DNA of 64,000 bases from Cladocopium goreaui (lineage: Eukaryota > Sar > Dinophyceae > Suessiales > Symbiodiniaceae). Where the stretch lies: the NCBI GenBank assembly GCA_947184155.2, contig CAMXCT020001089.1, positions 1 to 64,000 on the forward strand, in the 5' to 3' direction. A program made the translations under genes and the position numbers. Below, in pieces: positions 6,845-64,000 of this stretch (position 1 is its first letter; the number at the start of each line of letters is the position of its first letter). The notes below the pieces were generated by a model. That model had not been told where the DNA came from, ran no database searches, and was given only the letters and a program-made list of their open reading frames with translations.

Positions 6845-6937
6845 CTGGTTGGTGGTTTGGAACATTTTTTTCTCCATATATGGGAAGAATAATCCCAACT
6901 GACAAATATTTTTCAGAGGGGTTGAAGCCACCAACCA
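6845..6937. mobile_element. MITE family A
   Basis: Left end CTGGTTGGTGGTTTGGAACA, right end CCACCAACCA. The core is an imperfect foldback (ATATATGGGAAGAATAATCC / CAACTGACAAATATTTTTCA). About 93 bp, no ORF. Other copies lie at 9165, 9719, 21541/32420, 37000, 39012, 40656 and 50462. Confidence 0.9.
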
Positions 6938-10654: not shown

Positions 10655-12676
10655 ATAGTTATTAATGGTTGATTCATGGTTTATTAATGGTTGATTAATG
10701 GTTGATTAATGGTTTATTAATGGTTGATTAATGGTTGATTAATGGTTGATTAATGGTTTATTAATGGTTGATTAATGGTTGATTAATGGTTTATTAATGG
10801 TTTATTAATGGTTTATTAATGGTTGATTAATGGTTGATTAATGGTTTATTGATGGTTGATTAATGGTTGATTAATGGTTGATTAATGGTTTATTGATGGT
10901 TTATTAATGGTTGATTAATGGTTGATTAATGGTTGATTAATGGTTGATTAATGGTTGATTAATGGTTGATTAATGGTTTATTAATGGTGTATTAATGGTT
11001 TATTAATGGTTGATTAATGGTTTATTAATGGTTTCTTAACGGTTTATTAATGGTTGATTAATGGTTGATTAATGGTTTATTAATGGTTGATTAATGGTTG
11101 ATTAATGGTTGATTAATGGTTTATTAATGGTTGATTAATGGTTGATTAATGGTTTATTAATGGTTGATTAATGGTTGATTAATGGTTGATTAATGGTTGA
11201 TTAATGGTTGATTAATGGTTGATTAATGGTTGATTAATGGTTGATTAATGGTTGATTAATGGTTGATTAATGGTTGATTAATGGTTTATTCATGGTTGAT
11301 TAATGGTTTATTGCTGGTTGATTAATGGTTTATTAATAGTTTATTAATGGTTTATTAATGGTTTATTAATGGTTTATTAATGGTTTATTAATGGTTTATT
11401 AATGGTTTATTAATGGTTTATTAATGGTTTATTAATGGTTTATTAATGGTGGTTTAATGGTTTATTAATGGTTGATTAATGGTTTATTGATGGTTTATAA
11501 ATGGTTTATTAATGGTTTATTAATGGTTTATTAATGGTTGATTAATGGTTGATTAATGGTTTATTGATGGTTGATTAATGGTTTATTAATGGTTTATTAA
11601 TGGTTGATTAATGGTTGATTAATGGTTTATTAATGGTTGATTAATGGTTGATTAATGGTTTATTAATGGTGGATTAATGGTTGATTAATGGTTGATTAAT
11701 GTTTGATTAATGGTTGATTAATGGTTTATTAATGGTTTATTAATGGTTTATTAATGGTTTATTAATGGTTGATTAATGGTTTATTGGTGGTTGATTAATG
11801 GTTGATTAATGGTTGATTAATGGTTTATTAATGGTTGATTAATGGTTTATTAATGGTTTATTAATGGTTGATTAATGGTTTATTAATGGTTGATTAATGG
11901 TTGATTAATGGTTGATTAATGGTTGATTAATGGTTGATTAATGGTTTATTAATGGTTGATTAATGGTTTATCAATGGTTTCTTAATGGTTGATTAATGGT
12001 TTATTAATGGTTTATTAATGGTTTATTAATGGTTTATTAATGGTTGATTAATGGTTTATTAATGGTTGATTAATGGTTTATTAATGGTTTCTTAACGGTT
12101 TATTAATGGTTGATTAATGGTTGATTAATGGTTTGTTAATGGTTTATTAATGGTTTATTAATGGTTGATTAATGGTTGATTAATGGTTGATTAATGGTTG
12201 ATTAATGGTTTATTGATGGTTCATTAATGGTTTATTAATGGTTTATTAATGGTTGATTAATGGTTTATTAATGGTTTATTAATGGTTGATTAATGGTTGA
12301 TTAATGGTTTATTAACGGGTTATTAATGGTTTATTAATTGTTTATTAATGGTTTATTAATGGTTGATTAATGGTTGATTAATGGTTGATTAATGGTTTAT
12401 TAATGGTTGATTAATGGTTTATTAATGGTTGATTAATGGTTGATTAATGGTTTATTGATGGTTGATTAATGGTTGATTAATGGTTGATTAATGGTTTATT
12501 AATGGTTTATTAATGGTTGATTAATGGTTGATTAATGGTTGATTAATGGTTGATTAATGGTTTATTAATGGTTGATTAATCGTTTATTGATGGTTGATTA
12601 ATGGTTTATTAATGGTTTATTAATGGTTTATTAATGGTTTATTAATGGTTTATTAATGGTTTATTAATGGTTTATT
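10655..12676. repeat. 11-bp minisatellite, left part
   Basis: About 2.0 kb of 11-bp units ATTAATGGTTG and ATTAATGGTTT, which differ only at the last base and are mixed irregularly. Rare variants (GTTTCTTAACGG, TTATTGATGG, TTATTCATGG) are scattered. The same array resumes at 20279, so the two parts were probably one array of about 3.2 kb before the element at 12677-20278 arrived. Confidence 0.95.
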
Positions 12677-20016: not shown

Positions 20017-20278
20017 TTGTAGCACAAGTATTGTGCGTAGGAACATGAGAAGACTCGATGCCGAATGCCGAAGGTGTGAGGCTCGAGAAATTTCAAACCC
20101 ACAGCCACCCACCCCAGCTGCCAGTTGCACAGAGCGGCCTGCCGGTGCGGGTTGGATTTGACCAAAACAGCATCAACAGGCTGTTCTGGGTGCGACCGAC
20201 AGGCAGCGAATCATCCAAAAGGAAGGCCTAGTGCAGACGATCAGTGTGGACGGAATGAGAGTGAGAGGCTGAAATGTT
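20017..20278 (+). mobile_element. Internally deleted tandem copy of the element
   Basis: 262 bp: 20017-20097 match 12677-12757, and 20149-20278 match 19887-20016; about 51 bp between them differ. The right end GAAATGTT abuts minisatellite AATGGTTTATT. Head-to-tail arrangement with no spacer fits repeated insertion at the same recombination site. Confidence 0.9.
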
Positions 20279-21490
20279 AATGGTTTATTAATGGTTTATT
20301 AATGGTTGATTAATGGTTGATTAATGGTTGATTAATGGTTGATTAATGGTTGATTAATGGTTTATTAATGGTTGATTAATGGTTGATTAATGGTTTATTG
20401 ATGGTTGATTAATGGCTGATTAATGGTTGATTAATGGTTGATTAATGGTTTATTAATGGTTGATTAATGGTTGATTAATGGTTGATTAATGGTTTATTAA
20501 TGGTTTATTAATGGTTGATTAATGGTTGATTAATGGTTTATTAACGGTTTATTAATGGTTTATTAATGGTTTAGTAATGGTTTATTAATGGTTGATTAAT
20601 GTTTGATTAATAGTTGATTAATGGTTTATTAATGGTTGATTAATGGTTGATTAATGGTTTATTGATGGTTGATTAATGGTTGATTAATGGTTGATTAATG
20701 GTTTATCAATGGTTTCTTAATGGTTGATTAATTGTTTATTAATGGTTTATTAATGGTTTATTAGTGGTTTATTAATGGTTGATTAATGGTTTATTAATGG
20801 TTTATTGGTGGTTTATAAATGGTTTATTAATGGTTGATTAATGGTTGATTAATGGTTTATTGATGGTTGATTAATGGTTGATTAATGGTTTATTAATGGT
20901 TGATTACTGGTTTATTGATGGTTGATTAATTGTTGATTAATGGTTGATTAATGGTTTATGAATGGTTTATTCATGGGTTATTGATGGTTTATTAATGGTT
21001 GATTAACGGTTTATTAATGGTTGATTAATGGTTGATTAATGGTTGATTAATGGTTGATTAATGGTTCATTAATGGTTGATTAATGGTTTATTGATGGTTG
21101 ATTAATGGTTGATTAATGGTTTATTAATGGTTGATTAATGGTTGATTAATGGTTGATTAATGGTTGATTAATGGTTGATTAATGGTTGATTAATGGTTGA
21201 TTAATGGTTGATTAATGGTTGATTAATGGTTGATTAATGGTTTATTAATGGTTTACTAATGGTTGATTAATGGTTTATTAATGATTTATTAATGGTTTAT
21301 TAATGGTTTATTAATGGTTTTGTAATGGTTGATTAATGGTTGATTAATGGTTTATTAGTGGTTGATTAATGGTTGATTAATGGGTGATTAATGGTTGATT
21401 AATGGTTGATTAATGGTTGATTAATGGTTTACTAATGGCTGATTAATGGTTTATTAATGGTTTATTAATGGTTTATTAATGGTTTATTAA
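20279..21490. repeat. 11-bp minisatellite, right part
   Basis: Same ATTAATGGTTK units as at 10655-12676, about 1.2 kb. It ends at GGTTTATTAA before TTTTGAATTATGAAG. Confidence 0.95.
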
Positions 21491-21494
21491 TTTT

Positions 21495-21540: not shown

Positions 21541-21560
21541 CTGGTTGGTGGTTTGGAACA
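21541..21560. mobile_element. Left fragment of a MITE family A copy split by the LINE
   Basis: CTGGTTGGTGGTTTGGAACA. The last 15 bases (21546-21560) recur at 32420-32434, where the rest of the MITE continues to CCACCAACCAG at 32525. Confidence 0.9.
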
Positions 21561-21752
21561 GCCACGAGGCCCAAGACCTGTCAGGTTTGGTGTGGCCGCG
21601 CTAGCTGATCCTTGGGTGTACCCGATTTATCCTTTGGCCATGGCTCGGAATTCTCATCGATCCCTAATGGTGGCTGTATAACAGTGGTGGTGGAACTTCT
21701 GACGTATGATCCGACACATGATTCACATCTCCTTCAGATCAAACACTCAGGA

Positions 21753-22706
21753 ATGCTGTGCTTCTATACGGGTCTGTTAGATGCTGGATATAACTCCTAT
21801 ACCATCTGTGATGCTGTTCTTGCTTGTCAATATCCAATGCCCCGGATGATATGTGGAGAAATGACTCAGATTCTTTCTCATGCTCGTCCAGGTTGGCAGG
21901 ACTTTCGAAAGCTTGTGGACGTTTGCTCAGGCTTTGGTGGGATTGCGCATGGAGGACAGGCCCTTGGAATGAGGACGACTGTCGCAGTGGATTTCAATGA
22001 GAAGATGCTTCATTTGCATACCAAGCATGATAGCTCTGAGGTCATTCATGGCGATGTTGGAAGTAATGAGACCATTTTCAAGATATGGCAAAGGTCTGAA
22101 CGGGCAGCAATCATGTCCGGGGGGTTTTCATGCCAGCCGTACTGTGCCCTTGGCGATCAGAGAGGCAAAGATGATCCCAGGTCAGCATCTCTCACCAGTG
22201 TACTTCGTGCAGCCTACATGTTACAAGTCCATGTCTTGGTTTTGGAATGTGTCACGCCGGCTAGGAAGAACACTTTTGTGGCTCAGTCCATTGATGCATT
22301 TGCCAAGCTCATGAATTTCCGCACAGAGGTTGTCGATCTGAGCCTTGAGTCCATTTGGCCTTGTCGTCGTGCTCGAACTTGGTGGATTTTGTCGAGTCCA
22401 ATTTTGGGTCGTGTGGGGTTAGTTGACTGGCCACCCATGAAAGAAATTGACATTGTCCAGCGGTTGATTCCATATGTGTGCAGATGGGATCCCAAAGATG
22501 AAATGGCCTTGTCTTTGGATGCCGGTGAGATGCAGGCATTTGGAGCTGAAGATGGATCGTATTCCCGTTATCTTTTGAAACCAGGAGATGTGGCACCGTG
22601 TTTTCTCCATGCATATGGATCACAGTTGCGTGCATGCCCGTGTGGTTGTCGTGCAGGTCATTGGCAGAAAGGGATTGTTTGGATGTCTCTTGTGCAGTGC
22701 AGCTGA
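21753..22706 (+). CDS. Cytosine-C5 DNA methyltransferase domain, frameshifted
   Basis: First ATG at 21753; the frame is open from 21609 and may start earlier. C5-methyltransferase motifs are in order: motif I LVDVCSGFGGIAHGG (S-adenosylmethionine binding); motif II AVDFNEK; motif IV GGFSCQPYCALGDQRG with the catalytic Cys, but Ser where Pro is usual; motif V DDPRS; motif VI as VLECV (Glu kept, Asn replaced by Cys); motif VIII-like CRRARTWWIL; and a late LHAYGSQLRACPCGCR segment. The expected reaction is methyl transfer to C5 of cytosine. The frame runs to a stop at 22706, while the family's C-terminal segment continues in the next frame (22655-23259), so one indel near 22655-22672 breaks the gene. 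No ATG precedes the downstream domains, so it was probably the N-terminal part of a large ORF1 polyprotein. Confidence 0.82.
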   Translation: MLCFYTGLLDAGYNSYTICDAVLACQYPMPRMICGEMTQILSHARPGWQDFRKLVDVCSGFGGIAHGGQALGMRTTVAVDFNEKMLHLHTKHDSSEVIHGDVGSNETIFKIWQRSERAAIMSGGFSCQPYCALGDQRGKDDPRSASLTSVLRAAYMLQVHVLVLECVTPARKNTFVAQSIDAFAKLMNFRTEVVDLSLESIWPCRRARTWWILSSPILGRVGLVDWPPMKEIDIVQRLIPYVCRWDPKDEMALSLDAGEMQAFGAEDGSYSRYLLKPGDVAPCFLHAYGSQLRACPCGCRAGHWQKGIVWMSLVQCS

Positions 22707-23259
22707 CAATGGTGATCATTCAAGTTTACGACATTTGCATCCGAGTGAGGCCTTGATTTTGGTGGGAATGGATCCCATCATCGATTTCGGTGAAGACGTC
22801 AGATTGACATTGTCAGCCATTGGTCAGATTGCCAGTCCACTCCAGTCCTTGTGGGTTCTTTCCTTCATCTCAGCCAGAATTGATGAGCTGCGATTTGGAA
22901 AATGTGACTTTCCGCCCTTTTCCCAGTTGCAGGCATTTCGGTCATGGCTTCTCATGCGATCACAGGTAGTTTGGCCATGTAAAGATCAGATGATTCAAGA
23001 TCCAAAAATGGTTCAACTGGTAGAGACTTGGAAATGTGTGGATGGTCTTTTTCTCAACCAATTGATTGACTCAGGAAGATGGGAGGATCTCTGTGACAGG
23101 GATGTATCTATTGCAGCTGTTTTGGGCGTTGTCATAAGGTCTTCGATGAATGAGCCTGAACCTGTGCCATCGTCCATTATGCAGGATGAGCCTGAGACTC
23201 CTTGGTTTGACTCAGTTGTAGTTGATCCCAAGGGAGAAAGAACTTTGCTTGGAACTTGA
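22655..23259 (+). CDS. C-terminal segment of the methyltransferase, shifted frame
   Basis: Continues the preceding domain in frame +1: KGLFGCLLCSAADNGDHSS, then RHLHPSEALILVGMDP and IGQIASPLQSLW. This reads as the end of a C5-methyltransferase core followed by an extension. It closes at 23259 just after VVVDPKGERT, while the next frame is open from before 23222. A second single-base shift near 23240-23258 would join it to the following ubiquitin-like and protease-like part. Both shifts are more likely mutations than programmed events, since no clear slippery site is visible. Start coordinate approximate. Confidence 0.65.
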
Positions 23260-26200
23260 CAAGTGCTTTCTCACCTTTGTCGGTACTGAAGAGCATGCTG
23301 AGCCGTTGTCATTTGCAGGAGGTACTGCCGTCACTGAATGCTTGACTGCTCATGCAAAACTTGTAGGTGCATTTTGGGTTTGCCGACTCCTTGATGTCCA
23401 TGGGAATGAGTTGCCGATGTCTCATGTCATGCAGGTTGGTCAACATGTCCAAGTATGCCTGTCGAGTGCCGGCTGTGGTGTCCCATTTGGTGTCCAGGTC
23501 TGCCATGATCTTGCATGTACGGTCCCACATGTCCCTTGTTTGCCTGATGTGGTCATGTCTCCGTCTCGGTCTGGTATGAACCCTACGGTGATGCCTGATC
23601 TTTGCCCTGAGGAGAAGAAGCGGGAATACGGGCCACTCCCTAAATTGCCCGGTGATGTGTCTGGGGAATGCGGGCCACTCCCTAAAATGCCCGTGGGTGC
23701 TCATCGAAATGCTGGCTTGCCTGCCCCCAACTTGCCTGAGGGTGCAGTGCATCAACCAGATGCAGAAAGTGTGGAAAATCAAAGGGTTGTTGATCCTACT
23801 GTCCCGTGGGCTCACCCATGTTTCTCGGTGCCAGCAGCCTCTCATGATGGAGTGCAAACATCCGTGCAAGTGCCTGTTGATGTTGGAATTTGCTCGATTG
23901 TTGGAGGTGTTGCTGATGTGTGGGGATCTGCTGATTCACTCCTTGGCTTGGACTCCAACCAGTTTCTGAACCTTTTGGTCCCGTGCATTGCTGACTCACA
24001 GCAATTGACCTCTTTGCGAGGCAGATTCATTCGTAGCACAGATCGCATGCAATTGCTTGGAAAACATCAGGATCTTTGGGCTGATGATGAAATTCGCTTC
24101 CATTTGCACTTGATTCAGCAAGCGTTTCAGGGTAAGCCTAAGGGAGATGGTGGTCATGGCTTGATCATAGTTGACCCTCTGGTTTCAGCTGCTTGGATTC
24201 AGAACCGTGCATTTGCGTGTGAACAATGGGCTGCTGCCCATCCTGAAGTGTGCTCACAGGCGATTCAGGTCATCATGGTGGTTCGTGTTGAACAGCACTG
24301 GATTCCAGTCCATTTTGTCCCCAATGGAAGGCATGTAAATGTGTTCACGTGGGATGCACCTGAGAACTCTCATGATGTTTTGAATGGCATGATTGAGAAG
24401 TTGGCGTTTCCTTGGGGATTTGGGACTTTCCTCATTCACAGACAGCAAAGAATGTTCTTTTCAAGCCGATTGTGTGGTGCCCTTGCAGTGCACTATGTCC
24501 GACATGTCCTGTTTGGAACCCAGCTGCCCGCCACCCAGAATGAGGCTATGGATTCACACAATTGGTTACGTGAGAAGTTTGTAGAATGCCTTAGCCAACA
24601 TACCCAGGTGATGCGCCCTTGGATTTGGGGCCAAGGAGATGATGAGGCCACGGAGAAGAGTTGGCCATCCCATGATTCCTCTCCTGCCAATACTGGTGGT
24701 GCTGCAGCCTCCTCAGCAGCTCCACCCAGGGTATATGACTCCAACAGGGTTCTTTCCTCTCACATGTGCATATCCCTTGACGACAGACTTGACCTGATGG
24801 CTCAACATGGCCGTGACATGGCTGATGATGAAATTCGCTTCCACTTGAATGTTTTGGTTGATCGTTACAATGAGCAACGCCTGACTGCCAACCGATTTCG
24901 TCCCTTTTTCATGGCTTTTGATTGCCTCAATTTCTGGAACTGGGATGAAACAGGCCATGTCCTTACTGAAAAGTGGTGTGTGTCGTTTCCACAGGTTCGA
25001 TCAGAAGGTCAACAGGTTGTTACGGTGATGCTGATTGATGACCATTGGATCCCTTTTTGGTTGGTTCCTGGGGGTAGGGTTTTGGTTGCTCACACCTTCA
25101 ATGACTGGCTTGATTGGGACATTGTTGAGGGCCGCATTCGATGGATGGGCTTGCACTTGGGATTTGAAGAGGTCGTCATCCACCGTATTCCTCAGGGATT
25201 GCCGGATCACAGATTGTGTGGCTCTCAGGCACTGTCCTTTCTTGCTCATGTTTTGCTTCAAGCTGACTTGCCTCAAGATTTGCGAGGGTTGGAAGACATG
25301 TTCACGGCTCAAAGGGCGTCATTTGTCCAAGAAATGTATGCGGATAGTGTGTGCCGATGCCCAGTGATTTGGGGAGCAGGTGGAAGTGGGGTGCTTATCA
25401 AATCCCTCTCAGAAGAGCTTCTTCGTCATGGAGTCCCGGCTCACCTCACTGAATCCAGAGCGTCCCAAGCGATTAAGGCCATTGGTTCTGATCAACTTTT
25501 GCAAGCGCTTCAGCACAAGCAACCATGGCGCCAATTGAAGGCGTTAGGGAACAACGTGAATTTCAAGTTTGTCTTGCCCTCTGAGCTGGCTGCTGTTGTT
25601 GAAAGCAACAAATCTAAGCCTGTTGGTAAGAAATCCGCAAAAGAAAAGGCGCCGCCAGGCGTACCAGCCCCGATTGAGATTGACCCTTCCAAACTGCAAG
25701 TGTTGGAAGGCACTTTCCGGGCGCAAGGCCAGGTGTTGCCTCAATTGAGCCCTCAGCAAATTGGCCCATTGAGCACTGGCTATGTGCTTATGAATCTTGC
25801 TGAAGCTGAACCGTATTTGACCTGTGGAAAGAAAGTGTCTCAAGAGCCTCTTGCGCTGGTGGTCTTTCACAGGCGTGATGTGTCCCTTCAATCAATGTTG
25901 TCGCAGCATCCATGCACGGTACCATGTCGATGCATGGTAGACAATGAACCGATCTTGGCCGAAGCCACTCTGGTACAGATTGGCACTGGATCAGTGGAGA
26001 AGTGGTCGGGCACTGACGTCATTGCAGTTGACTCTCCAGATGTTTGCACAATCAAGGTATCAGTTTTCAAGGATGAATTTGGTGAACCCTGGGAATCATT
26101 CAGCAAGGCTCCCATTCGTGGCATTGTTGGTCTTATCCCGGAACTCAAAAGATGTATGACTGAGGGATGTACATGTGCTGCTTGGCACAATGAAGAAGGA

Positions 26201-27313
26201 ATTCCTATCCGAGAGCCAATCCTTGACCTTTGGAAGCGCCAATTCTTGAAGTTCGGTTTCAAGCAGGTTGATGCTCTTCAGGCAGACTTCTTCTGTGTGT
26301 CAATGCGGGTGCCTTCATGCCTCTTGGACAAAATTCTCCAGCGCAGTGGTCACCTTGGTGTGTATGTAGAGCCCAGGACTGCGGATGGCAAAGAAGTCAT
26401 GAGTGAGTATATGGTCATCTGGATGCCGAAACACACTTTGCAGTCACTTCATCACACGAGGCAGACTAACCCGGCAGTGCTTGGACTTGCTCGGGTAGGG
26501 GATAGAAGAGGTCTCAGAGTACCAGCTGCTCAAGCGCAGCAGGTGCACAGTGTGGTTCGCCCAGATACGCTGTTTCTCCCTCAAGGTGCAAGGGTTCATT
26601 ACACGGCAGGGCCATTTCCTTTTGGACTGGATAGGCAAGGGATTTCAAAGGCCATGAAACAGGTTGGATGGGATTGCAAACCTCTCCAGCCTGCTGCGCC
26701 GCAGCCTGGAAGAGGAGCCATGTGGGTGCTTCAGGCTGTAGATCCGCCACCGAACTCCATTGTGTTGACTAGCCATGTGGAAGTTGTGATCTCAAAACAG
26801 AAGGGATCTGATCAGCCTGAACGTACCACTCTGTCAGTTCCAGTTGCTTCACCGGCTACTCTAGCTTTGTGTGGACAGCAGCAATCCAGTCGAGAAGATC
26901 CATGGATCAAACAGGACCCATGGGGATCGTATGCCCCCAGTTCCACTGCGCCAGTTGTGAATGCTCCTGCTGCCTCAGAGAGTCTTCAGCAAATGGAGAG
27001 TAGGATCCAACGTGCTGTGCTAGCCAAAATGCCACAGTCAATGGAAGATGATGTGCCTGACAGGCTCAGCACTTTGGAAAGCCAAGTGCATCACCTTCTT
27101 CACAAGCAAACGCAGATTGAAACTCAGTTTGGGGAATTTTCGGTTCAGCAGACTCAGCAGGTTGCCTCGCTTCAATCTCAGGTTCATGCGAATGCCCAGC
27201 AGATGCATGGCCAGCTTGAACAGCAGAACCAGAGCATGCAGGCGATGTTCGAGACGCAACTTGCACATATCAGAGGCTTGCTGGCTAAAAGGCCCCGCGA
27301 TGATGGAGAATGA
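23222..27313 (+). CDS. LINE ORF1 main part: ubiquitin-like region, two Ulp1-like protease domains, coiled coil
   Basis: 1363 codons; the first ATG (23417) falls inside the first domain, so it is probably translated as a fusion with the methyltransferase. Residues 10-85 resemble a ubiquitin-like fold. Two similar domains follow at about 285-455 and 535-715, each opening with ADDEIRFHL (duplicated DNA 741 bp apart). Each has His-Trp (EQHWIPVHF; DDHWIPFWL), an Asp (FTWD; FND), a Gln-containing turn (IHRQQ; IHRIPQ) and Cys-Gly (RLCGALAVHY; RLCGSQALSF). That His-Asp-Gln-Cys order is the Ulp1/C48 layout, so cysteine peptidases on ubiquitin- or SUMO-like substrates, or on the polyprotein itself, are inferred. 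Residues 975-1000 have a Cys-rich CMTEGCTCAAWH. The last 100 residues are a Gln-rich coiled coil ending KRPRDDGE, as in trimerising LINE ORF1 proteins. Confidence 0.75.
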   Translation: MIPREKELCLELDKCFLTFVGTEEHAEPLSFAGGTAVTECLTAHAKLVGAFWVCRLLDVHGNELPMSHVMQVGQHVQVCLSSAGCGVPFGVQVCHDLACTVPHVPCLPDVVMSPSRSGMNPTVMPDLCPEEKKREYGPLPKLPGDVSGECGPLPKMPVGAHRNAGLPAPNLPEGAVHQPDAESVENQRVVDPTVPWAHPCFSVPAASHDGVQTSVQVPVDVGICSIVGGVADVWGSADSLLGLDSNQFLNLLVPCIADSQQLTSLRGRFIRSTDRMQLLGKHQDLWADDEIRFHLHLIQQAFQGKPKGDGGHGLIIVDPLVSAAWIQNRAFACEQWAAAHPEVCSQAIQVIMVVRVEQHWIPVHFVPNGRHVNVFTWDAPENSHDVLNGMIEKLAFPWGFGTFLIHRQQRMFFSSRLCGALAVHYVRHVLFGTQLPATQNEAMDSHNWLREKFVECLSQHTQVMRPWIWGQGDDEATEKSWPSHDSSPANTGGAAASSAAPPRVYDSNRVLSSHMCISLDDRLDLMAQHGRDMADDEIRFHLNVLVDRYNEQRLTANRFRPFFMAFDCLNFWNWDETGHVLTEKWCVSFPQVRSEGQQVVTVMLIDDHWIPFWLVPGGRVLVAHTFNDWLDWDIVEGRIRWMGLHLGFEEVVIHRIPQGLPDHRLCGSQALSFLAHVLLQADLPQDLRGLEDMFTAQRASFVQEMYADSVCRCPVIWGAGGSGVLIKSLSEELLRHGVPAHLTESRASQAIKAIGSDQLLQALQHKQPWRQLKALGNNVNFKFVLPSELAAVVESNKSKPVGKKSAKEKAPPGVPAPIEIDPSKLQVLEGTFRAQGQVLPQLSPQQIGPLSTGYVLMNLAEAEPYLTCGKKVSQEPLALVVFHRRDVSLQSMLSQHPCTVPCRCMVDNEPILAEATLVQIGTGSVEKWSGTDVIAVDSPDVCTIKVSVFKDEFGEPWESFSKAPIRGIVGLIPELKRCMTEGCTCAAWHNEEGIPIREPILDLWKRQFLKFGFKQVDALQADFFCVSMRVPSCLLDKILQRSGHLGVYVEPRTADGKEVMSEYMVIWMPKHTLQSLHHTRQTNPAVLGLARVGDRRGLRVPAAQAQQVHSVVRPDTLFLPQGARVHYTAGPFPFGLDRQGISKAMKQVGWDCKPLQPAAPQPGRGAMWVLQAVDPPPNSIVLTSHVEVVISKQKGSDQPERTTLSVPVASPATLALCGQQQSSREDPWIKQDPWGSYAPSSTAPVVNAPAASESLQQMESRIQRAVLAKMPQSMEDDVPDRLSTLESQVHHLLHKQTQIETQFGEFSVQQTQQVASLQSQVHANAQQMHGQLEQQNQSMQAMFETQLAHIRGLLAKRPRDDGE
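23623..23696 (+). repeat. 36-bp in-frame duplication in ORF1
   Basis: GGGCCACTCCCTAAA with its context occurs twice, giving YGPLPKLP and CGPLPKMP in the proline-rich linker. Confidence 0.75.
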
Positions 27314-27367
27314 AGGTGTGGGCGTGGATGGTTGGATTGGGCACTGACTGCTTTTGTCCTGTGCTGG

Positions 27368-30300
27368 ATGTGGATTCAATGCCTTGTCACTGTCCTGGTG
27401 CCCAAATTTTTTCAGGGGTTCACAGCTGTGTGCTGTTTTACACATCGATGTGGCCGAAACCGATGTCAGTTCCCTTTGGCCCGTTTATGTGCTTTTCTTC
27501 TTTTGATTCGGATTGGGGAAGCATCTCACCCTGGTCCTGAAGACTCATGTTTCATTCTTGGGGTTGCTAACCCTACGGGGTTGCGAAGTAAGGCGCCTTA
27601 CGTCATGTCACAGATGGAGCATGGTGATGTTTGGGCTTTCAGTGAAACTCACTTGTGCACGAGAGGGTTGGCTTCCTTCAATGCTGGACTCAAATTCGCA
27701 GGTTCTGGGTTTCATCCGTTGGTTGGTGGACATCCTGTTCCCGTCTCCAAAAGCAATGCTGGGTGTTGGAAGGGTGTTGGGGTTCTTGCAAAGACTCCTG
27801 TTCGTAAGATTCCTCATGATTGGCCCATGGAAATCCAGCAATCCAGTCGAGCCCTAGCAGTCACTACCTTGGTTGATGATGTCTGGTTGACTGGAGGAGT
27901 GGTTTATGGTGAGCCTGAAAGCCATCTTTACCCTGATCGACTTCGACATACAGAAGCCTTGTTGCATGCGGTCGTGAGTACAGTTTGTTTTCTCTCGGTT
28001 GGGCCCAGATTTGTTGCTGGTGATTGGAATGTTAACTTTGGCGAGCTTCCTGCCTTTGATTTACTTGCGCAAGCCGGGTTTAAGGATCTCCAAGACTTGG
28101 CTGAAGAACGATGGGGACTTGCCCCCCAACCAACGTGCAAACACCGTACCCGCAAAGATTTTTGTTTCATCTCGCCAGAGCTTCAGGCCTTGCTGTTGAA
28201 TGTCTCTGTGTTGAGTGATGTGTGGCCTGACCATGCAGTGTTGCAAGGGCACTTTGCCCGCTTGAGAACATCGGTTCCACGTGATTTTTGGAGAGTTCCA
28301 GGTCCGTTTCCATGGCCTAAGCCGTGGGAAATTTCTCCTGATGCATGGACATCATTGCCTGGTGATCCCTCCGAGAAGTATGCTGCCCTTTGGAACATGG
28401 TTGAAAAAGCTGCCTCAGATGCGCTGCCGTTTTGTCCTGGAAAACAAGTCAAGGGTCGTGCTCAGACCATTGCCCCAAAAACTAGACGTGTTGGCCGATG
28501 TCCACCGTTGAAGGTCGGGAGAACGGGTGACTTTTCCCCACAATTTTTTGGTGCGTCATTCCGACATGCTCAATGGATCCGGCAAGTTCGCAGAATCCAG
28601 GCTTTTCTGCGTCATGTGCAGGTTCGGGGAGCTGACTCCCCTTATGCCCATCAAGTCTGGAATGCGATCCTGATGGCTAAGGGATTTGTTGGAGGTTTTG
28701 CGGCCTGGTGGGACACTTTAGTGACCAAAACGTATGGGGCACCATCCAAGATCCCGTGGGAACCACCTGACCTCTGTGGAGCTACGAGTATTTTTGAAAC
28801 CATGGTCATTGAAGTCAGGGCGCTTGAGCATGCCCTCAAATCCACTTCACGGCAATATGCTCGGCTGCGCAGAGCATGTAAGCCCAATGTTTTGTTTCGT
28901 GACCTGAAAGAACCTCCTCCCCAGGGGGTTGATTTTCTGCTCAAACCGCTGAAGACGAAGGTTCTTGAAGTTTGTGATCATGACTGCTCTTTGATTGTTG
29001 ACCACCCGCAGGAATGGGATCATCATTGTCCGATCTTTTGCAATGGGGTGCAGTTGGATGTGATTCATGTTGACCATGACTGTGTCTGGGTGTCTGATGT
29101 TTCGGGAGTTCAGCCTGGCCAGGTGGTTGTCCAACTCCAGAGAACAGGTACCAAACAGGATCTCTGCAGGGCATTCATGGAAGAATGGAGCTCCCGATGG
29201 GATCGACACAAGAATGTTCCACCTGACCGCTGGGATATAATACTTTCTTTTGCTCGGCAGCATTTGCCCAGATGTACTATGTCTTGGCCAATGATTGATC
29301 CCAGTGCATTGGCGAATATCATTGCACACAAGAAGTCGACGTCTGCTTCTGGGTTAGATGGTGTGTCTTTGGCTGATTTGCGCTCGATGCCTGAGAGTGT
29401 TTTGCAAAATTTTTGCTCCATTTTTGCAGAAGCGGAAGCCACTGGAAACTGGCCGTCTCAATTGCTTGATGGCAAAGTTGTGGGTCTTGCAAAGAATGAT
29501 TGTCCTAGTGGGGTTATGGACTACCGACCAATCACCATTTTGGGCCTTTTGTATCGTTGCTGGGGGTCGTTCCATGCGAAACAAGCAAGTCGCCAGTTGG
29601 AAGCCATCTTGCCTGACACTTTGTTTGGATCGCGTCCAGCTAGATATGCTGGCCAGGTTTGGGCCCAATTGCTTTGGGTTGTTGAACATGCGACTGCCAG
29701 CCAGATTGCTCTTTCGGGGGTCTTTGCGGACATTCAGAAAGCTTTCAATTGTCTCCCGAGGCTGGTGATTTTTGAAGCCGCGGCAATTTTGGGGGTGCCT
29801 ATGGCTGTCCTTACAGCCTGGGCAGGAGCGTTGTCTCAGCTTGGTCGTAGGTTTCAGTTGGGCGATTTCCTCTCACCACCGGTTTTTAGCTCCACTGGTA
29901 TGCCTGAAGGCGATGGATTGTCGTGCCTGGGAATGGTTATCATTGATGTGCTATTTCACTTGTGGCATGGTTTTTTCTTTCCGCTTTGCCAACCTGTCTC
30001 CTATGTTGATGATTGGACTCTGGTAACCACAAATCCCTCGGTCATGGATGCCCTTTTTAGGTGTTTGCAATCTTTCACTGATGCAATTGACCTGCAAATT
30101 GATGGCAAAAAGACGAGCATGTGGTCCGTTTGTTCTCAGGGACGCCAGATCCTGCAAGAGGCTGGTTTTGTTGTTGTCACACAGTGTCGGTCTCTGGGTG
30201 CTCACATTCAGCTCTCACGGAAGCATACGAACTCCACACAAATGCAGAGGGTCCGGACCCTGCAGGGGATTTGGCCTAAGCTTAGGTTGTCTTCTACGCC

Positions 30301-32359
30301 GTATAGGTATAAGGTGCATGCTGTCCGTGCAGCAGCCTGGCCGAAAGGGTTGCATGCCATCCCAGCCACCACCATTGCCAATAGCACGTTTAAGACCCTG
30401 AGAGCAGGTGCAATGAAAGGATTGGATGCAGAAGGGGCGGGGGTGAGCTCACATGTTCATCTTGGTCTCATTGAACTACCTGAAACAGATCCGCAGTTTT
30501 GGACAATTTTACAAACGTTTAGAATGGTGCGTGATTGCGGCATTCCTGATGTTGTATGTCCGGTGCTTCAGACAGTTGCAGCAGGCGATGATCGATTTCC
30601 AAGAAATGGAATTACCACCACCTTGCTTACTCGCATCCACACCTTAGGCTGGAGGGTTGAAGGTGACGGGCTGGTGGATGACTCTGGCTGGTTTTCCCTT
30701 TTTGAGGTCTCCATTGAAGAGTTGAAGTGGAGGATGGAATATGCCTGGTTGAGAGTGGTTTCCTCCAGGGTGGCTCATCGCCCTGGTTTGGCAGATCTTG
30801 GCCGTGCAGATCCCAAAAAGACTCGCAAGTGGCTCCAGTCGTTGTCCAATTCAGACCAAGCCTGCTGCAGGAAGCTCCTCAATGGGGCTCATATAACCCA
30901 AGACGGTAAGCACCATTGCCAAGAATGTGATTCCGATGTCTGTAGCTTTTGCCACTCCAGTGACTCGCGGTTTCATAGGTTTTGGTTGTGCCCACATTTT
31001 GATGAGCATCGTCAAGGGATTTGTTCCGACCTTCATGATGCACTTCCCAGTTTGCCTGAGTGCATGGTTTCGTATGGTTGGGCCCTCAGACCTAGCACAT
31101 TTCATGAGTGGTATGCCTACCTTGCGAGTGTCCCTGAGCAGACCATTCCGGTCATTCCGATGAACTCGCCAGACGTCATGCACTTGTTCACAGATGGGAG
31201 TTGTGCCAACCCACAATATCCTGATTGTAGGTTTGCTGCCTGGTCGGTTGTGATTGCTGATCCTCTGATGGAGTCAGCTGCTTTGATTCTTGATTGTGGA
31301 GTCTTGCCCGGATTACGCCAGACGTCTGTCCGAGCAGAGTTGTACGGGGTTTGTCGAGCCATAAGGTTTGCTGCGGTCCATGCGCAGTCTATCCATATTT
31401 GGTCAGATTGCCTGTCAGTCGTGTCCCGCCTGAATCGTCTGTTGTTAGGAGGTAGAGTTCGCCCGAACTCACCGAATGCAGACCTGTGGAGACGAATTGC
31501 AGATGATCTCAAGTCCCTTGGTTCCCATCGTGTCCAAATCACTAAGGTTGCAGCACACAGGGATGTTCAGCATGCCAGCACGCCGTTTGAAGAGTGGTGT
31601 TTTTTGCATAATCATTTCTCTGACCAAGTAGCAGGCAGGGCTAACTTGCATAGGCCAGAAGGGTTTTGGAGACTCCTTTCATGCCATGTCAGTGCGTGTC
31701 TGAAGTGTGATCAGTGGAGTGCTGAAGTTCAGAGGGTTCTTCTTCGTGTCAGTCAGCATGTCTTGAGAAATGAAAGCGTAGCTGTCCACGAACCTGATGT
31801 TTTGCCTGAGGGCCCTACGCCTACATGGAAGACACTGCTGCCGCTTGCACAACTGCCACGTGGAGCTTTGCGTTGGTATGGTGATGAAATTGTGCGTTCA
31901 ATCGTCAGCTGGTGGTGGAGTACTCTATTTGATTCAGTTGAGCCGGTGCAATGGATTTCACATCTGCAGCTGTTCATTGACTTTACCAGCTCCACTGGCC
32001 TTGTGGGGCCTGTCAAGTTTCATGGTTGGAAAGAAGGGTCGAATGTTCCTTTGTTTGGGCTTGTGCAGCCTTCTTTTAAACAGAGGACGAAGTGGTTCAT
32101 CAAAGTCGTGAAAGAAGTGATGCGTCACATGCAGCTCCCTTTTGAGTCTGCGTATTGCAAGCCAGCTAGCGTCATGATCTCAATGTTTGTTGGCTGTGTT
32201 GCTGTCCCGTGGCCGCGTTCTCGGCTCCATGCGGTGGATAGGTGGCTCAGGCAGTTTACAGATCAACCATTCCGGAGACAGAGTAAGGCCATTGATACTC
32301 TTCCGGTTGCCAAGAGAAATGACGCTTTTCCTTTCATTCCATTCACATCGTGTCAGTGA
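27368..32359 (+). CDS. LINE ORF2: 2A-like motif, APE endonuclease, reverse transcriptase, zinc motif, RNase H
   Basis: First in-frame ATG 27368 (1663 residues), 54 bp after the ORF1 stop and in the same frame. Residues 44-57 read LLLIRIGEASHPGP, a 2A-like motif with His for the usual Asn. The endonuclease follows (about 62-300): GVANPTGLRSK, SETHL with catalytic Glu, VAGDWNVNFG, and VWPDHAVL. RT (about 645-990): DYRPITILG, FADIQKAFNCL (motif A), GMPEGDGLSC (motif B), SYVDDWTLV (motif C). A zinc-type CQECDSDVCSFC with later His and Cys lies near 1184-1210. RNase H (about 1274-1418): LFTDGSC, RAELYGV, IWSDC and VAAHRDV supply the D-E-D-(H)D set. All key residues are present and the frame is open. 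Role: target-primed reverse transcription of the element. Confidence 0.95.
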   Translation: MWIQCLVTVLVPKFFQGFTAVCCFTHRCGRNRCQFPLARLCAFLLLIRIGEASHPGPEDSCFILGVANPTGLRSKAPYVMSQMEHGDVWAFSETHLCTRGLASFNAGLKFAGSGFHPLVGGHPVPVSKSNAGCWKGVGVLAKTPVRKIPHDWPMEIQQSSRALAVTTLVDDVWLTGGVVYGEPESHLYPDRLRHTEALLHAVVSTVCFLSVGPRFVAGDWNVNFGELPAFDLLAQAGFKDLQDLAEERWGLAPQPTCKHRTRKDFCFISPELQALLLNVSVLSDVWPDHAVLQGHFARLRTSVPRDFWRVPGPFPWPKPWEISPDAWTSLPGDPSEKYAALWNMVEKAASDALPFCPGKQVKGRAQTIAPKTRRVGRCPPLKVGRTGDFSPQFFGASFRHAQWIRQVRRIQAFLRHVQVRGADSPYAHQVWNAILMAKGFVGGFAAWWDTLVTKTYGAPSKIPWEPPDLCGATSIFETMVIEVRALEHALKSTSRQYARLRRACKPNVLFRDLKEPPPQGVDFLLKPLKTKVLEVCDHDCSLIVDHPQEWDHHCPIFCNGVQLDVIHVDHDCVWVSDVSGVQPGQVVVQLQRTGTKQDLCRAFMEEWSSRWDRHKNVPPDRWDIILSFARQHLPRCTMSWPMIDPSALANIIAHKKSTSASGLDGVSLADLRSMPESVLQNFCSIFAEAEATGNWPSQLLDGKVVGLAKNDCPSGVMDYRPITILGLLYRCWGSFHAKQASRQLEAILPDTLFGSRPARYAGQVWAQLLWVVEHATASQIALSGVFADIQKAFNCLPRLVIFEAAAILGVPMAVLTAWAGALSQLGRRFQLGDFLSPPVFSSTGMPEGDGLSCLGMVIIDVLFHLWHGFFFPLCQPVSYVDDWTLVTTNPSVMDALFRCLQSFTDAIDLQIDGKKTSMWSVCSQGRQILQEAGFVVVTQCRSLGAHIQLSRKHTNSTQMQRVRTLQGIWPKLRLSSTPYRYKVHAVRAAAWPKGLHAIPATTIANSTFKTLRAGAMKGLDAEGAGVSSHVHLGLIELPETDPQFWTILQTFRMVRDCGIPDVVCPVLQTVAAGDDRFPRNGITTTLLTRIHTLGWRVEGDGLVDDSGWFSLFEVSIEELKWRMEYAWLRVVSSRVAHRPGLADLGRADPKKTRKWLQSLSNSDQACCRKLLNGAHITQDGKHHCQECDSDVCSFCHSSDSRFHRFWLCPHFDEHRQGICSDLHDALPSLPECMVSYGWALRPSTFHEWYAYLASVPEQTIPVIPMNSPDVMHLFTDGSCANPQYPDCRFAAWSVVIADPLMESAALILDCGVLPGLRQTSVRAELYGVCRAIRFAAVHAQSIHIWSDCLSVVSRLNRLLLGGRVRPNSPNADLWRRIADDLKSLGSHRVQITKVAAHRDVQHASTPFEEWCFLHNHFSDQVAGRANLHRPEGFWRLLSCHVSACLKCDQWSAEVQRVLLRVSQHVLRNESVAVHEPDVLPEGPTPTWKTLLPLAQLPRGALRWYGDEIVRSIVSWWWSTLFDSVEPVQWISHLQLFIDFTSSTGLVGPVKFHGWKEGSNVPLFGLVQPSFKQRTKWFIKVVKEVMRHMQLPFESAYCKPASVMISMFVGCVAVPWPRSRLHAVDRWLRQFTDQPFRRQSKAIDTLPVAKRNDAFPFIPFTSCQ
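27497..27538 (+). other. 2A-like peptide motif at the start of ORF2
   Basis: Encodes a hydrophobic run followed by GEASHPGP immediately before the endonuclease. It aligns without gaps to LLILAGDVELNPGP in the element at 50951-58740. Because Asn before PGP is His, skipping may be weak or absent. Confidence 0.6.
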
Positions 32360-32419
32360 GGCGCCTGAAAGTGGGCTGCTGTCGATTACTACAGCAGCGC
32401 GAAATGGAAATGGGAGAAA
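32360..32419 (+). promoter_or_regulatory. LINE 3' UTR with stem-loop and short tail
   Basis: GCTGCTGT (32375-32382) and ACAGCAGC (32391-32398) form a perfect 8-bp stem with an 8-base loop. A purine tail with GAAATG repeats follows to the target-site duplication. Such 3' stem-loops are recognised by the RT in some LINEs; here this is inferred. Confidence 0.65.
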
Positions 32420-32525
32420 TGGTGGTTTGGAACATGGCTTTTATGACTTTCCATTCAGTTGGGAATGCCATCATCCCAACTGACGAACTCATATTTTTCA
32501 GAGGGGTAGGTATACCACCAACCAG
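32420..32525. mobile_element. Right part of the MITE family A copy split by the LINE
   Basis: Begins with the duplicated TGGTGGTTTGGAACA and ends CCACCAACCAG; internal GACGAACTCATATTTTTCA matches the family. Confidence 0.9.
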
Positions 32526-62522: not shown

Positions 62523-64000
62523 TCAGGCTTGAACCACCATAAAAGGACAATGCCGGGGCTGGCAAACGGCATGGGAGCTGCAGGGAAGCATTTGGGGGGC
62601 TTTGCGGGCTGGCAGACGGCAGGCTTGAACCACCATAAAAGGACAATGCCGGGGCTGGCAAACGGCATGGGAGCTGCAGGGAAGCATTTGGGGGGTTTAG
62701 GCTTGAACCACCATAAAAGGACAATGCCGGGGCTGGCAAACGGCATGGGAGCTGCAGGGAAGCATTGCGGGCTGGCAAACGGCAGGCTTGAACCACCCTA
62801 AAAGGACAATGCCGGGGCTGGCAAACGGCATGGGAGCTGCAGGGAAGCATTTGGTGGGTTTTGCGGGCGGGTAAACGGCAGGCTTGAACCACCATAAAAG
62901 GACAATGCCGGGGCTGGCAAACGGCATGGGAGCTGCAGGGAAACATTTGAGGGTTTTGCGGGCGGGCAGACGGCAGGCTTGAACCACCAGAAAAGGACAA
63001 TGCTGGGGCTGGCAAACGGCAGGGGAGCTGCAGGGAAGCATTTGGGGGGTTTTGCGGGCGGGCAAACGGCGGGCTTGAACCACCATAAAAGGACAATGCC
63101 GGAGCTGGCAAACGGCAGGGGAGCTGCAGGGAAGCATTTGGGGAGTTTTGCGGGCTGGCAAACGGCAGGCTTGAACCACCATAAAAGGACAATGCCGGGG
63201 CTGGCAAACGGCATGGGAGCTGCAGGGAAGCATTTGGGGAGTTTTGCGGGCGGGCAAACGGCAGGCTTGAACCACCATAAAAGGACAATGCCGGGCTGGC
63301 AAACAGCATGGGAGCTGCAGGGAAGCATTTGGGGAGTTTTGCGGGCGGGCAAACGGCAGGCTTGAACCACCATAAAAGGACAATGCCGGGGCTGGCAAAC
63401 GGCATGGGAGCTGCAGGGAAGCATTTGGGGGGTTTTGCGGGCTGGCACACGGCAGGCTTGAACCACCATAAAAAGACAATGCCGGGGCTGGCAAACGGCA
63501 TGGGAGCTGCAGGGAAGCATTTGGGGGGTTTTGCGGGCTGGCAGACGGCAGGCTTGAACCACCATAAAAGGACAATGCCGGGGCTGGCAAACGGCATGGG
63601 AGCTGCAGGGAAGCATTTGGCGCGTTTTGCGGGCGGGCAAACGGCAGGCTTGAACCACCACAAAAGGACAATGCCGGGGCTGGCAAACGGCATGGGAGCT
63701 GCAGGGAAGCATTCGGGGAGTTTTGCGGGCTGGCAAACGGCAGGCTTGAACCACCATAAAAGGACAATGCCGGGGCTGGCAAACGGCATGGGAGCTGCAG
63801 GGAAGCATTTGGAGGTTTTGCGGGCTGGCAGACGGCAGGCTTGAACCACCATAAAAGGACAATGCCGGGGCTGGCAAATGGCATGGGAGCTGCAGGGAAG
63901 CATTTGAGGGTTTTGCGGGCTGGCAGACGGCAGGCTTGAACCACCATAAAAGGACAATGCCGGGGCTGGCAAACGGCATGGGAGCTGCAGGGAAGCATTT
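62523..64000. repeat. 96-bp minisatellite, continues past the window end
   Basis: About 16 units. GGCTTGAAC starts at 62785, 62881, 62976, 63072, 63168, 63264, 63359, 63455, 63551, 63647, 63743, 63838 and 63933; steps are 95 or 96 bp, with shorter units before 62785. Shared words: CACCATAAAAGGACAATGCC and GCATGGGAGCTGCAGGGAAG. Frames of 390-490 codons on the minus strand, in all three registers, come from a stop-free unit and are not called as genes. Confidence 0.95.

Follow-up and report, generated by a model that had tools for sequence, protein, structure and literature searches.

A methyltransferase LINE of Cladocopium goreaui at one position of an abundant MITE, with a candidate 5' ribozyme and a predicted readthrough junction

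Relation to SymbioLINE-Dnmt and borders of the element

The published methyltransferase-carrying long interspersed nuclear element (LINE) is SymbioLINE-Dnmt, an intronless element present in many copies in a Symbiodinium (old sense) host, with a DNA methyltransferase in open reading frame 1 (ORF1), endonuclease (EN), reverse transcriptase (RT) and RNase H in ORF2, target-site duplications (TSDs) and no poly-A tail (de Mendoza 2018, PMC5890265). NeSL and Utopia are target-specific LINEs with an Ulp1-like cysteine protease domain, and they have a restriction-like endonuclease and a single N-terminal protease (PMC4640811, available text). Here we describe a LINE of 10,859 bp at 21561-32419 on the plus strand of contig C1089 of Cladocopium goreaui, in a stretch of 64,000 nucleotides that is called the window below. 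It belongs to the SymbioLINE-Dnmt kind, matched on the described features, namely gene content, TSDs and lack of poly-A, and it has the same kind of host, intronless structure and many copies. It has an Ulp1-like fold in ORF1, as NeSL and Utopia do, but combines EN-RT-RNase H with one to five tandem domains of this fold behind the methyltransferase. Its copies share a single insertion position within the terminal inverted repeat (TIR) of a miniature inverted-repeat transposable element (MITE) of about 100 bp. Tx1L of Xenopus, also a LINE with an apurinic/apyrimidinic endonuclease (APE)-type enzyme, has a DNA transposon as its specific insertion target, but its host, target and gene content are different. 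We consider it probable that this MITE-specific LINE has its RNA freed by a ribozyme and makes an ORF1-ORF2 fusion through UGA readthrough, where RNA cleavage, readthrough and protease activity are all predicted. A methyltransferase LINE with ORF2, TSDs and no poly-A was already known, and the rest was not found described: the UGA-stem arrangement, the MITE target and the protease-fold array were absent from the literature that the search reached, with most subscription papers and all supplements beyond it. The main text of the SymbioLINE-Dnmt paper, as far as available, has no mention of Ulp1, peptidase, protease, readthrough, same frame, ribozyme or inverted repeat (PMC5890265).

The borders in the window could be read directly. 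The 15-bp duplication TGGTGGTTTGGAACA stands at 21546-21560 and again at 32420-32434, and the two match exactly. The left one continues the 5' end of the target MITE (remnant at 21541-21560, CTGGT plus the duplication) and the right one begins its remainder (32420-32525), so the borders are correct. Whole copies of the same MITE were found at four other places in the window, near 6845, 9165, 37000 and 40656. The exact duplication, the borders and the insertion into a known MITE, all proposed in a sequence-only reading of this DNA, were thus confirmed.

LINE copies were then sought across the 1.166-Gb genome. Their flanks played no part in the selection, which used the similarity of the ORF1 protein, and the best 34 of 1316 candidates were scored. 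The 3' end was attempted in 33 copies and reached in 31 (11 whole copies and 20 short stretches); it was not reached in C2491 and C5164, and C2182 runs off its contig. The elements C5954, C653 and C2395 are more than 99% identical. The 5' flank of C5954 recurs in C653 and its 3' flank in C2395, which looks like an exchange of flanks, either across the element or during assembly. Because of such near-duplicates, the independent insertions are fewer than 31. In 11 of 11 whole copies, the methyltransferase and two to five protease-fold domains lay upstream of ORF2 and the duplication lay outside both ORFs. No whole copy had a duplication around ORF2 alone, the arrangement named beforehand as contrary to the claim that all coding parts move as one unit, and that claim therefore stands. 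The 11 copies had TSDs and no poly-A tail; GAGAAA and GACAAACG are examples of their 3' ends.

In the window, ORF1 is broken into three frame pieces. Piece 1 (21609-22706) holds the C5 methyltransferase (PF00145 at about 21909-22265, E 1.5e-9 in the Pfam search), piece 2 (22579-23259) lies between the methyltransferase and the protease-fold domains, and piece 3 (23222-27310, 1363 aa) ends in a long helix of the coiled-coil type (27053-27286). The breaks had been read as frameshifts in one long ORF1, and homologues were indeed open where the window copy is broken. With piece 3 as query, 138 homologous proteins were found, of which 120 were listed, and in several of them one uninterrupted frame of about 1,800-2,250 aa includes the methyltransferase. 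One protein, recorded under Cladocopium goreaui, is identical along the 607 aligned residues, which makes Cladocopium the most likely host. An xCQP motif occurred within the first 450 residues of 50 of the 120 listed homologues (SCQP in 37), followed downstream by RxRxW in 48 of the 50; we take these to be forms of PCQ and RxR, the motifs usual in methyltransferases. ORF2 is open over 27314-32356 (1681 aa) and consists of a hydrophobic leader, EN, RT (RVT_1, 29513-30199) and RNase H (31178-31567). RT and RNase H scored above the Pfam cut-off and the endonuclease match was below it.

Protease-fold domains of ORF1

The ORF1 domains have the fold of the CE clan (Ulp1/SENP type), and one to five of them are present per copy. 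The window copy has two, domain A (24026-24640) with His, Asp and Cys, and domain B (24761-25381) with His and Cys but Asn at the third triad position. The largest array was seen in C2124 (L021-L022), whose ORF1 of 2,949 aa contains five domains and serine/arginine-rich linkers (RSRSRSP). Over 267 domain copies, His was kept in 256 of 257 and Cys in 263 of 264, while the third triad position was Asp in 132 of 261 and varied with the position of the domain. In a structural model the His is at the start of a strand and the Cys at the start of a helix, as in SENP-type enzymes; their equivalence to the catalytic residues of the enzymes rests on order and fold rather than on superposition at residue level.

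Profile searches linked the domains to no known peptidase. At E<=1, Pfam gave no family for them in the ORF1 piece of the window, PF02902 Peptidase_C48 included, nor was PF02902 among the 25 families listed, of 30, for 29 members. Of the two profile matches expected from the sequence-only reading, the methyltransferase was thus obtained and Peptidase_C48 was not. It is possible that the domains are structural or binding modules with a retained fold and not proteases, which would agree with the missing sequence-profile match, the variable third triad position and the range in domain number. The near-invariant His and Cys and their SENP-like placement in the model speak against such modules, and cysteine proteases are the reading that we prefer.

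The UGA between ORF1 and ORF2 and its RNA stem-loop

ORF1 and ORF2 are separated by a conserved in-frame UGA (27311-27313 in the window). Thirty-four junctions were read (32 in the first pass, and L030 and L031 afterwards). ORF1 ended in Glu-UGA in all of them, and its frame stayed open past the UGA to an IGEA motif in 33, the exception being C962, with a frameshift 8 codons past the UGA. Glu was also the C-terminus of ORF1 in 89 of 91 homologues. Frame and RNA counts were made on 25 copies, without the near-duplicates (C653, C2395 and loci L035, L038, L040 and L043), without the frameshifted L039 (C962) and without L030 and L031. GAR-TGA was present in 25/25. From UGA to IGEA, frame 0 had no stop in 1,633 codons, and the two alternative frames had 83 and 36 (codons of C1202 were counted only up to an early motif match). 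The first Met after the UGA varied from residue 6 to residue 97, and C2583 (L029) had none before residue 97. The leader after the UGA was hydrophobic, with a best 19-residue mean of 1.8-2.6 in 31 copies. The IGEAxxPGP motif stands directly before EN (27512-27538) in nearly all of 31 copies. It has a 2A-like look, and a 2A peptide was considered and rejected: the consensus is D-V/I-E-x-N-P-G-P, and the motif here is mostly I-G-E-A-x-(N/H)-P-G-P, with non-canonical spacing, one residue too many before N.

An extended stem-loop starts 6 nt 3' of the UGA (27320-27403), in which GGGC at 27320-27323 pairs with GCCC at 27400-27403. GGG at +9 was found in 25/25 copies, although GGG makes up only 121 of 512 Gly codons in the background. 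Its partner CCC was a Pro codon in 19 copies and one base off the codon in 6; a fixed GGG together with an off-codon CCC means that RNA, not protein alone, is kept. Position +12 was paired in 25/25 (C-G in 15, G-C in 7, U-G in 2 and A-U in 1), and the stem core was paired in 24 of 25 minimum-free-energy folds. Arms of the same copy paired better (-22.7 kcal/mol) than swapped arms (-15.3 kcal/mol), and 0 of 20,000 shuffles did as well as the true arms; with 21 copies, after close relatives were removed, the result was again 0/20,000. The mean folding z was -2.9 (range -5.4 to -0.1), and that of 300 control windows was 0.04. With the register fixed, pairing was found in 88% of cells, and 55 cells had changed in both partners; none of 2000 shuffles went beyond 79% and 36.

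Readthrough signals usually have a stem 6 nt downstream of the stop, and alphavirus-type readthrough also joins an in-frame stop to a 3' RNA structure. From the layout of the UGA and stem-loop we infer a programmed readthrough signal. Gammaretroviral gag-pol readthrough is alike in having an in-frame stop and an RNA structure a few nt downstream (PMC5009743, available text); the stop here differs in standing between ORF1 and ORF2 of a LINE, and the readthrough is a prediction. ORF2 might instead be translated separately, by reinitiation, from an internal start or one other than AUG, or from an ORF2 mRNA made by spliced-leader trans-splicing, so that the UGA would be a plain stop and the stem would serve reinitiation or another RNA role. 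This would fit the published transcript coverage of SymbioLINE, which has a 3' bias toward ORF2 and the 3' untranslated region (PMC5890265, as available), and some Met does precede IGEA in 24 of 25 copies. But no Met is conserved, as C2583 illustrates, the frame open from codon 1 past the UGA is ORF1's own in 33 of the 34 junctions, and the spacing of the stem is the one usual for readthrough. We regard separate translation as rather unlikely and retain readthrough.

Target site, 5' end and proposed mechanism

At their 3' ends, 30 of 31 copies joined the MITE-end sequence at an identical offset, and the exact 15-mer was at the junction in 27. The site of C654 matched at 14 of 15 positions and that of C2124 at 13 of 15, while the best match to the 15-mer in shuffled stretches was 8-13 of 15. 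C3055 was inserted in the opposite MITE arm at the same offset, with the identical 15 bp on its 5' side, which suggests that the terminal repeat common to both arms is what the LINE recognises. The duplication was 15 bp in 9 of the 11 whole copies, 13 bp in C5884 and only 9 bp in C6059, which is at a variant site. A subgroup with 13-bp duplications is formed by C5884 with C845, C5403 and C210 (loci including L078, L080 and L081); in it the 3' junction is therefore fixed and the 5' junction shifts by 2, which suggests a shifted second-strand cut. Survivorship, with insertions elsewhere purged and those in the MITE remaining, could draw on the abundance of MITE ends in the genome, but purging may favour the MITE and not a single position in it, so the one offset at 30 of 31 3' junctions makes this explanation highly improbable.

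The target MITE copies measured were 95-111 bp long, with terminal repeats CTGGTTGGTGG...CCACCAACCAG. An exact 20-mer of the MITE end occurred 19,036 times in the genome, and the reversed control 0 times. The MITE strand switched once in 95 neighbours (first 100 sites listed, parts of five contigs). In ten LINE regions and the window, 19 MITEs were on the strand of the LINE and 0 on the opposite one, host MITEs and near-duplicates counted and C3055 not included. The local orientation is one-way, which could reflect a link to unidirectional gene arrays. Symbiodinium microadriaticum is reported to have introners with TIRs and 4-bp TSDs that bring their 3' splice site with them (PMC9860276, available text). 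The target MITE has TIRs and a very high copy number, and we put forward as a hypothesis that it may be an introner family.

At the 5' end, a candidate ribozyme of the hepatitis delta virus (HDV) type covers 21561-21617, with the pairings P1 (GCCACG/TGTGGC), P2 (GCCCAAG/CTTGGGT) and P3 and CTGA at J4/2. An HDV-like descriptor (P1, P2 and CNRA at J4/2) fitted 14 of 17 5' ends, the window included, with the start within the first bases, compared with 17 of 900 shuffles and 2 of 761 genomic positions. When P3 was also required, 6 of 15 ends fitted, compared with 7/600 shuffles and 0/391 positions. The 17 ends are the 16 first tested and C910 afterwards; C653 and C2395 were left out as duplicates, and L072, L076 and L082 did not extend to the 5' end. 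The descriptor missed C5754, which is cut short, C2124, whose P2 is weak by eye, and C910 (L014). R2 and L1Tc also have an HDV-like ribozyme fold at the 5' end (PMC3774820, PMC4035085, available text), whereas the one here is a candidate from sequence and has no Rfam match.

In the mechanism that we propose, the LINE would be transcribed together with the host locus, and the HDV-like ribozyme would free its RNA at nucleotide 1. ORF1 would be the main translation product, and a fraction of ribosomes, aided by the stem-loop, would pass the UGA and make an ORF1-ORF2 polyprotein. The RRM-like and coiled-coil part of ORF1 may bind the RNA, the CE-fold domains are most likely cysteine proteases with the polyprotein or ubiquitin-like modifiers as substrates, and the methyltransferase would act on the RNA or cDNA of the LINE. 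EN would then nick the MITE arm and prime reverse transcription.

A number of observations weigh against this mechanism. For the CE-fold domains they are the variable third triad position and the lack of a link to known peptidases. For the target, about 90 bp downstream of the C654 site is not clearly a MITE, and C6059 lies at a site that resembles the target but belongs to no recognisable MITE. For the ribozyme, the Rfam search of the LINE 5' end gave no match, and C910 has an unrelated 5' terminal sequence (it nonetheless has an open ORF1 and a 15-bp TSD). The sequences had been viewed before the descriptor of the ribozyme and the register of the RNA were chosen, though the controls were run in the same form. 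The folding z of some single copies was weak (up to -0.1), and covariation of the extra-pair type (observed 25) was reached by 63 of 2000 shuffles. To these come the 3' bias of SymbioLINE transcription and the result that the one SymbioLINE domain tested gave no DNA methylation in yeast, called inconclusive by its authors (PMC5890265, as available).

A broader proposal is doubtful: that this is a retrovirus-like LINE living in introners, which would insert mostly in the MITE orientation, ride on host pre-mRNA, cut itself out with the HDV-like ribozyme, make a Gag-Pol-like polyprotein by UGA readthrough, mature it with an array of CE-clan proteases and mark its RNA or cDNA with the methyltransferase. 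If the proposed mechanism is true, this would be a LINE whose two ORFs are linked by programmed, covariation-backed readthrough and whose specific target is an abundant MITE, itself a possible source of introns. In the family, ORF1 would unite a methyltransferase and a variable array of protease folds. The mechanism would also make testable why such LINEs retain a methyltransferase and how harm to the host is avoided.

The window also contains two long arrays of one 11-bp unit (ATTAATGGTTG), at 10661-12676 and 20277-21491. The second stops about 50 bp upstream of the target MITE, and a similar array adjoins the LINE copy C5884. A 96-bp tandem array lies at 62765-64000 and continues past the window end.
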